Source: a bacterium (GTDB lineage: Bacteria; Blakebacterota; Blakebacteria; Blakebacterales; Blakebacteraceae). From it: a stretch of 9,069 bases of DNA. Below, in pieces: positions 8,095-9,053 of the stretch (positions are counted from its first letter, which is position 1; each line of letters opens with the position of its first letter). Both the position numbers and the translations under genes were made by a program. The stretch covers positions 1 to 9,069 of the forward strand of contig JALGVQ010000120.1 in the NCBI GenBank assembly GCA_025774615.1. Reading direction: 5' to 3'. The notes under the pieces were generated by a model that made no database searches, was not told where the DNA came from, and saw nothing but the letters and a program-made list of their open reading frames with translations.

Positions 8095-8439
8095 ATGGAT
8101 GTTGAGCATCAACGTATGTACCAGTACTACTCTGAGGTCTGCAAGGCGATGTCTAACCCCCAGCGCCTGGCGATTATCGATATCCTGCGTCAGGGTGAGG
8201 TGCCTGTCGGCAATCTCGCCGAACAGCTGGGACGCTCGATCAGCAACACCTCCCAGCATCTGGCGGTGCTGAAGTCGGCCAGGCTGGTGAAGTGCCGCAA
8301 AGAGGGGACAACCTGCTACTACAGTGTGTCCACACCGGCCATCTTCAAGGCGTTCGACTGCATGGCTCAGATCATCTTCGATGGAATGACCGATCGGGCC
8401 GAACACAGGGAATACCTCAAGAGCCAGGTTCTGGTATAG
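8095..8439 (+). CDS. ArsR-family winged-helix regulator with wing cysteines
   Basis: A 114-residue DNA-binding repressor-type protein. ATG 8095 is chosen because AGGGGGTG (8080-8087) lies 7 nt upstream; in-frame alternatives at 8029 (TTG) and 8077 lack this. The fold is the standard ArsR/SmtB one: CKAMSNPQRLAIIDILRQGE (16-35), helix-turn-helix VGNLAEQLGRSISNTSQHL (38-56), then the wing VKCRKEGTTCYYSV (65-78). It lacks the ELCVCDL metal site of classical ArsR (EVPVGNL instead). It has four other cysteines: C16 in helix 1, C67 and C74 on opposite strands of the wing, and C89 in the last helix. Thiol, persulfide, arsenical or metal sensing is therefore possible; the ligand is unknown. It is followed after 23 nt by a small membrane protein with an in-frame TGA and then an FmdB gene, probably its regulon. 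Confidence 0.9.
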   Translation: MDVEHQRMYQYYSEVCKAMSNPQRLAIIDILRQGEVPVGNLAEQLGRSISNTSQHLAVLKSARLVKCRKEGTTCYYSVSTPAIFKAFDCMAQIIFDGMTDRAEHREYLKSQVLV

Positions 8440-8462: not shown

Positions 8463-8636
8463 ATGGAGTGGATACTGTTCATAGTCGCTTATCTGCTGCT
8501 CACACAGTGGCTCCTGCCGAAGATGGGAGTACCCACGTGAGCGGTACCCTACGCTGCCGGGGACCGGCAGGCTGACTGTATTGACCAGGGTGGTAGTGGA
8601 GCAGATTCAGAGATACACAAAGGAATCATCGAATAA
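8463..8636 (+). CDS. Probable small membrane selenoprotein (TGA 8538-8540 read as Sec)
   Basis: No named family recognised. The strong Shine-Dalgarno GGGGAGAG (8449-8456) lies 6 nt before ATG 8463. Residues 1-19 (MEWILFIVAYLLLTQWLLP) form one membrane helix, followed by KMGVPT and then TGA. Read as a stop this is a 25-residue peptide. Read as selenocysteine (U26) it gives 57 residues: UAVPYAAGDRQADCIDQ, then a hydrophilic tail ending KGIIE and TAA at 8634-8636. That TAA overlaps the ATG of the FmdB gene by one base. A SECIS-like hairpin begins 13 nt after the TGA. The only other cysteine is C39. K20 just after the helix suggests the Sec-containing tail faces the cytoplasm. Neighbours (a cysteine-rich ArsR regulator, a zinc ribbon) suggest a redox or metalloid response. 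The alternatives are a genuine 25-residue peptide or a nonsense mutation. The initiation site is well supported; the Sec reading is inferred. Confidence 0.68.
8538..8572 (+). promoter_or_regulatory. Candidate bacterial SECIS element
   Basis: After TGA (8538-8540) and 13 nt, CTGCCGG (8554-8560) pairs perfectly with CCGGCAG (8564-8570) across a GGA loop; opening the closing pair gives loop GGGAC. G8553 can add a pair with C8572 if G8571 is bulged. Bacterial SECIS elements are hairpins directly downstream of the UGA, with the loop roughly 16-37 nt away and a G among its first loop bases. Here the loop starts 20 nt after the UGA and begins GG. SelB binding is inferred. Confidence 0.62.
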
Positions 8637-8842
8637 TGCCGATGTACGATCTGAAATGTTTGAACTGCGGGCACGAGTTCGAGGATCTCGTTTCGAGTCA
8701 TGACGCTATCAGTGAGACCACCTGTGAGAAATGCGGGATTCCCGGTCTGGAACTGAAGCCGAGCCTCTTTGCAGCCAGTGTGTCGGCCGGCATTTCAGGG
8801 TCAACATCGAGTGGTTCATGCGCACCCGGTCCATTCAGGTGA
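8636..8842 (+). CDS. FmdB-type zinc-ribbon protein
   Basis: A 68-residue protein with the FmdB opening MPMYDLKCLNCGHEFEDLV, close to the family's MPIYEYxCxxCGHxFE, which fixes the start at ATG 8636. Two CxxC pairs, C8/C11 and C30/C33, form a rubredoxin-like zinc ribbon. The tail is Ser/Gly-rich with a lone C62 (SSGSCAPGPFR), as FmdB tails often are. FmdB was described as a putative regulator near amidase genes; for most members the role is unknown. The ribosome binding site is poor (AGGA 11 nt upstream), and the ATG overlaps the TAA of the upstream frame, so translation probably depends on ribosomes that pass the TGA at 8538. The gene ends at TGA 8840-8842 with a hairpin 11 nt further on, so a Sec-extended C-terminus (U-G-S) is a remote possibility. 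Confidence 0.85.
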   Translation: MPMYDLKCLNCGHEFEDLVSSHDAISETTCEKCGIPGLELKPSLFAASVSAGISGSTSSGSCAPGPFR

Positions 8843-9000: not shown

Positions 9001-9010
9001 TCTATACCGT

Positions 9011-9053
9011 CAAAACCCTGGCCGGGAGAAATCCTGGCCAGGGTTTTGTCTTG
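9011..9053 (+). terminator. Intrinsic terminator of the tRNA gene
   Basis: CAAAACCCTGGCCGGG (9011-9026) pairs with CCTGGCCAGGGTTTTG (9033-9048), 16 pairs with one G-T wobble and a 6-nt loop AGAAAT. The 3' arm's own TTTT and the following TCTT supply the U-rich end. The A/T-flanked symmetry could also work on the opposite strand. Confidence 0.9.

Follow-up and report, generated by a model that had tools for sequence, protein, structure and literature searches.

A previously undescribed family of small bacterial membrane proteins with a predicted UGA-encoded selenocysteine

We report a gene that, judged from sequence and its conservation, very probably encodes a genuine selenoprotein of a previously undescribed family, in which an in-frame UGA would be read as selenocysteine (Sec) through SelB and a downstream hairpin. 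The gene lies near the end of the 9,069-nucleotide stretch of DNA analyzed here (the window). Its relatives are spread over about 15 phyla, and in the phylum of genome G310 they occur in 167 of 395 sampled genomes, despite two decades of bacterial selenoproteome mining. Ordinary gene callers would stop the ORF at about 25-30 codons. With this family, the bacterial selenoproteome would gain an architecture that is small and anchored in the membrane, a bacterial parallel to SELENOK and SELENOS, and the poorly characterized FmdB zinc-ribbon family would gain a conserved genomic partner. Given the defined motif and hairpin, re-annotation is immediately possible.

The gene occupies positions 8463-8636 of the forward strand. 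Its ATG at 8463 is preceded by GGGGAGAGATCGGG, and the read-through product is MEWILFIVAYLLLTQWLLPKMGVPT-U-AVPYAAGDRQADCIDQGGSGADSEIHKGIIE, a protein of 57 residues with the proposed Sec at residue 26 (U26; TGA at 8538-8540), within the motif LPKMGVPTU. The tail after U26 starts with AVPYAAGDRQADCIDQGG and includes Cys39 (codon at 8577-8579, or U+13). Between the TGA and the TAA at 8634-8636 are 31 sense codons, and the TAA shares the sequence TAATG with the ATG at 8636 of the next gene. A SECIS-like hairpin, CTGCCGG-GGA-CCGGCAG, is located at 8554-8570 on the same strand, with arms at 8554-8560 and 8564-8570 that form seven perfect pairs, and with a GGA loop at 8561-8563 that begins 20 nucleotides after the TGA. 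A first-pass annotation made from the letters of the window had pointed out the in-frame TGA, the perfect 7-bp hairpin with its G-starting loop and the TAATG overlap, all of which are located where it placed them; its count of 32 open codons after the TGA was one too many.

The neighboring genes are on the forward strand as well. An ArsR/SmtB-family transcription factor gene (8095-8439; NF033788, 85 bits versus a cut-off of 55) ends 23 nucleotides upstream of the selenoprotein gene, and the overlapping downstream gene (8636-8842) encodes an FmdB-family zinc-ribbon protein (TIGR02605, 40.7 bits versus a cut-off of 31.3; Pfam Zn_ribbon_8). The three genes probably constitute one operon. Farther downstream, a terminator-like inverted repeat at 9005-9050 (CCCTGGCC...GGCCAGGGTTTTG) directly follows a tRNA-Met gene.

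The hairpin was evaluated by using the published bacterial SECIS rule (PMC13188914), which calls for a stem of 4-16 bp, a loop of 3-9 nucleotides with G in one of its first two positions, a distance of 16-37 nucleotides from the UGA, and an energy of -7.5 kcal/mol or lower. The window hairpin conforms to this rule at -11.2 kcal/mol. This energy was reached by 129 of 5000 codon shuffles of the window (2.6%), an equally good rule hairpin follows 7 of the 382 TGA triplets in the window, and the fold of the whole 61-nucleotide region is not significant (z = -0.39). The hairpin in isolation is thus moderately unusual, and the window alone would not convince of Sec. Conservation among relatives lifts the hairpin far above chance. 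At the -7.5 kcal/mol threshold, a rule hairpin is present in 63% of the 101 distinct TGA members versus 5.8% of codon shuffles, and at -5 kcal/mol, in 88% versus 14%. Moreover, in 54 members that were picked by amino acid motif and not by structure, canonical pairs make up 74% of the stem in its proper register, with 118 double-change cells, whereas slid registers of the same members show 29-47% canonical pairs and 25-55 double-change cells. Covariation is therefore seen only in register, as compensatory changes within the SECIS stem. For this family, it is the rule-based test over all members that is informative, and not a z-score computed from the window fold.

The relatives were not found by direct comparison. 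No close homologue of the 57-residue query was detected in the scanned genome contigs at E-values up to 1e-3. The short length and the divergence of the family account for this, and made profile and pattern searches necessary. When the 57-mer was searched against 145 genomes, the matches were short and weak, and many shared a single TGA in an identical position. Ten sequences with a short N-terminus, one helix and the motif LP-[KR]-x-G-[VI]-[PS]-T-TGA constituted the first family set. Matches that lack the motif (for example, L015, L019, L024, L027, L029, L030, L032, L035 and L039) were dropped as chance matches, and four weak HMM matches (L202-L205) proved unrelated. A profile search of 386 genomes identified 41 carriers at E < 1e-4. 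The closest congener genome, a metagenome-assembled genome (MAG) that is 85% complete, had no profile match, and no match to the family was found in the plasmid sequences searched.

A DNA pattern search that left the Sec column open as TGN extended the family to loci in Desulfobacterota and relatives, KSB1, KSB3, Acidobacteriota, Armatimonadota, Planctomycetota, Spirochaetota, Gemmatimonadota, Verrucomicrobiota, Zixibacteria, Krumholzibacteriota, Margulisbacteria, Myxococcales and others. Cultured organisms also carry the family, among them Geomobilimonas luticola JCM 17780, Thermodesulfatator autotrophicus S606 and Desulfocicer vacuolatum DSM 3385. Among 80 of the matches listed for this pattern, the Sec column holds 77 TGA, one TGC, two TGT and no TGG codons, and over 148 loci it holds TGA in 144, a Cys codon (TGC or TGT) in three, CGA in one and TGG in none; the pattern search is biased toward the UM form, and the ratio of Sec to Cys is consequently not an unbiased estimate. 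The CGA (Arg) codon belongs to L058 (G248:C168), whose tail is truncated; gene decay or an error in sequencing may account for it.

The genome that contains the window is 82% complete in 324 contigs and has all four genes for Sec synthesis and insertion that the first-pass annotation had suggested seeking: selA (509 bits), selB (321 bits, above the cut-off), selC, encoding tRNA-Sec (66 bits), and selD (351 bits; L207, G000:C273:7717-8634). The selD gene has one in-frame TGA, and the selenophosphate synthetase of this genome is probably itself a selenoprotein. Across the 386-genome set, selB is present in all 41 family carriers, against a background of 173 of 386 (p = 2.7e-16). In the phylum of G310, selB was detected in 159 of 167 carriers versus 194 of 228 non-carriers (Fisher p 8e-4). 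The eight carriers in which selB was undetected are all MAGs whose genus or family includes selB-positive members, and missing sequence would be the simple explanation. The three genomes with a Cys form (L073, L096 and L110) lack selB, with only EF-Tu-size scores below the cut-off, and selB is present in the four TGA-form genomes that were checked beside them.

We read the UGA as Sec; Cys replaces TGA exactly in the genomes without selB. SelB would decode the UGA immediately after LP-[KR]-x-G-[VI]-[PS]-T, by using the hairpin whose loop lies 16-24 nucleotides downstream. If the UGA were instead a true stop, the functional product would be a membrane peptide of 25 residues, or else a leader peptide, and the sequence TGAATG, which occurs in 87 of the 111 distinct members, would represent a stop-restart in many of them. 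This interpretation appears very improbable, because members with TGAGCG, TGACTC and other sequences have no restart codon yet keep the hairpin, and because neither the covariation of the hairpin, the presence of selB in every one of the 41 carriers nor the placement of the Cys forms would be expected of a stop. Even less credible is a selenium-free reassignment or suppression of UGA as another amino acid such as Trp: the exchange partner is Cys, the pattern allowed TGG and returned none among the 80 matches listed, and the linkage to selB is strict. In each of the 111 distinct members, moreover, the frame past the TGA runs on for 14 codons or more without a stop. Close pairs show a strong third-position excess upstream of the UGA (28/10/62%), and downstream the excess persists in weaker form (32/26/42%). 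The relatives thus stay open beyond GVPT-TGA, mostly keep a downstream Cys and show exchange of TGA for Cys, as the first-pass annotation had proposed looking for, and its 57-residue selenoprotein with U26 gains support from the Sec machinery, the TGA column, this exchange and the conserved hairpin.

Family members are typically predicted to be single-pass membrane proteins of 45-90 residues (median 55.5). At the exit from the membrane, before the UGA, is the LP-[KR]-x-G-[VI]-[PS]-T motif; P(-7), G(-4), T(-1) and U itself hardly vary. The mean number of Lys and Arg residues is 3.9 in the C-terminal flank of the helix versus 0.4 in the N-terminal flank, with an excess on the C-terminal side in 97% of members. 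By the positive-inside rule, the tail and the Sec are therefore predicted to be cytoplasmic (N-out/C-in), with the Sec at the cytoplasmic face of the membrane.

A Cys is located at U+5 in 93 of the 111 distinct members (84%), and the tail past this Cys is poorly conserved. The window tail is an outlier, of a UAVP type shared with L064, L191 and L193 and with its Cys at U+13, versus the common UMxxxC. Cys39 had been put forward as a possible partner of the Sec. For this protein a selenenylsulfide with Cys39 is plausible, but the arrangement does not generalize, as the usual candidate partner is at U+5. A U-Cys selenenylsulfide is not universal in the family, because four distinct members have no Cys after U. 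In six members (L064, L069, L072, L191, L192 and L193), a Cys after the Sec is absent or distant, and their Sec may work without an internal partner; the SECIS-like hairpin is present in the three of these that were checked (L064, L069 and L072).

Genes near the family were tabulated partly by blastp clusters and partly by regular-expression motifs, so that some counts are not full gene calls. By motif scan, 22 of 148 loci have an adjacent FmdB gene, within about 0.5 kb and without exception on the same strand. Ten carriers have only one to five FmdB genes per genome, and well under one chance adjacency is therefore expected. Thioredoxin motifs were found nearby in 16 of 148 loci, and blastp clusters of thioredoxins and of ArsR regulators are near the family in 10 and 12 of 108 loci, respectively. 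Two members (L068 and L200) run in frame into a thioredoxin domain; L200 has an internal ATG, and a separate thioredoxin start is possible there. The Cys form L110 is flanked by thioredoxin and DUF6132 genes on one side and by a CcdA-thioredoxin protein on the other, and elsewhere the neighbors are YgaP-like membrane domains, or TauE together with a flavin oxidoreductase. L143 at first looked like an SQR-like fusion, but its flavin oxidoreductase starts from a separate ATG behind a Shine-Dalgarno sequence of its own, and the fusion was rejected.

Several further associations are confined to particular groups. In seven Desulfobacterales loci (L075, L081, L100, L105, L111, L134 and L150), a sigma-70 region-2 (ECF-like) gene follows the family gene, in some cases along with a zf-HC2 anti-sigma gene. 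Genes for zf-HC2 proteins also lie upstream of two Cys forms (L073 and L096). Five loci (L110, L124, L074, L116 and L045), three of them in KSB1 genomes, have as a neighbor a tiny membrane protein resembling DUF6132 (GCxSGxCP[IL]TSNP).

Guilt by association leads us to propose, tentatively, that the most likely function is a redox relay that is anchored in the membrane, works through a selenenylsulfide and is served by thioredoxin. The short N-terminus would be periplasmic and the charged tail cytoplasmic, which would place the Sec at the inner membrane face. There the Sec, usually along with the Cys at U+5, would form a selenenylsulfide; its reduction would fall to cytoplasmic thioredoxin, which some members carry as a fusion or have encoded next to them. 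Such a protein could relay or scavenge oxidized thiols, persulfides or peroxides that reach the membrane, with the FmdB zinc-ribbon protein as a working partner and with the ArsR regulator controlling the gene in some genomes. With the same reserve, the family might be seen as a new membrane selenothiol relay, phylum-spanning and built like SELENOK/S, through which redox chemistry at the inner membrane surface is linked to cytoplasmic thioredoxin and FmdB.

Two live rivals concern this function only, and not the Sec. One is metal or metalloid handling, in which a cytoplasm-facing selenolate, with the Cys, would bind soft metals such as Hg or As at the membrane and ArsR would be the metal sensor. 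The ArsR/SmtB gene directly upstream in the window and at other loci is consistent with this role, as are the many predicted metal-transport selenoproteins (PMC13188914). However, the recurrent neighbors are thioredoxin, CcdA, FmdB and YgaP-like membrane genes, with no mer or ars genes among them, and ArsR is linked in a minority of loci; we consider this role rather unlikely. We give a similarly low probability to redox signaling, in which the protein would not be a catalytic relay but a membrane sensor, controlling the zinc site of FmdB or the ArsR regulator according to the oxidation state of its Sec. Adjacency to ArsR, the uniform strand of the 22 FmdB neighbors, and the sigma factor and zf-HC2 anti-sigma neighbors of several lineages all speak for such a sensor. 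Against it, the regulators vary by lineage, but partners of the thioredoxin type are recurrent and, in two cases, are fused to the family protein.

The first-pass annotation had supposed that the family might be undescribed, and database comparisons bear this out. Six full-length members matched no family in NCBIfam 20.0 at E-values up to 1, five members had nothing above the cut-offs in Pfam, and 31 trimmed members gave only scattered, weak and unrelated matches to family models. A sequence search of the PDB found no relatives with a solved structure. The GVPTU/UMxxxC motif is absent from the 119-family table of a 2026 selenoprotein review (PMC13188914); the literature covered is open-access, and a description elsewhere is possible. 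Comparison with the Olavius selenoproteome showed OS_HP1 (UxxC) and OS_HP2 (PF07610) to be different from the family. The zinc-ribbon protein FA519 (225 residues) was set aside, as it is not shown to be FmdB-like.

With the 119 catalogued families of bacterial selenoproteins (PMC13188914), the present family shares its decoding, a UGA with a downstream bSECIS that fits the rule. Small selenoproteins are also encoded in Tso/Sao operons, and the NCBIfam TsoR is an ArsR-type regulator that the ArsR of the window weakly resembles; its 42 bits are far under the TsoR cut-off of 115, and the window protein had no match to models of TsoA/B/C/X/Y or SaoC. The proposed mechanism is similar to the membrane thiol relays of DsbD/CcdA, TlpA and thioredoxin, and DsbD/CcdA-type and thioredoxin genes adjoin the family at some loci. 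Unlike those relays, the family protein has a single helix and itself lacks a thioredoxin fold: Pfam finds no thioredoxin domain in the 57-residue window protein, and such a domain appears only as the fusion partner in L068 and L200.

The closest architectural likeness is to SELENOK and SELENOS, which are small proteins with a single N-terminal membrane helix and a cytoplasmic tail that carries Sec, which have Cys forms in some organisms and for which, in SelS, a Sec-Cys selenosulfide has been proposed (PMC10650576, PMC3628699). The present family has the same single N-terminal transmembrane helix and cytoplasmic C-terminus, as predicted from hydropathy and charge asymmetry. It differs in that Sec is residue 26 of 57, directly after the helix, instead of second or third from the C-terminus, in that the tails of relatives are charged (Lys, Glu and Asp) and not Gly-rich, and in that the SECIS is within the coding region. 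The likeness is one of architecture, and we make no claim of homology. Finally, selenium and FmdB have been found together before, in the FmdB-family selenoproteins of the GOS metagenome, where FmdB itself carries Sec (PMC2398784); here, FmdB is instead the ordinary Cys-containing neighbor of a selenoprotein.
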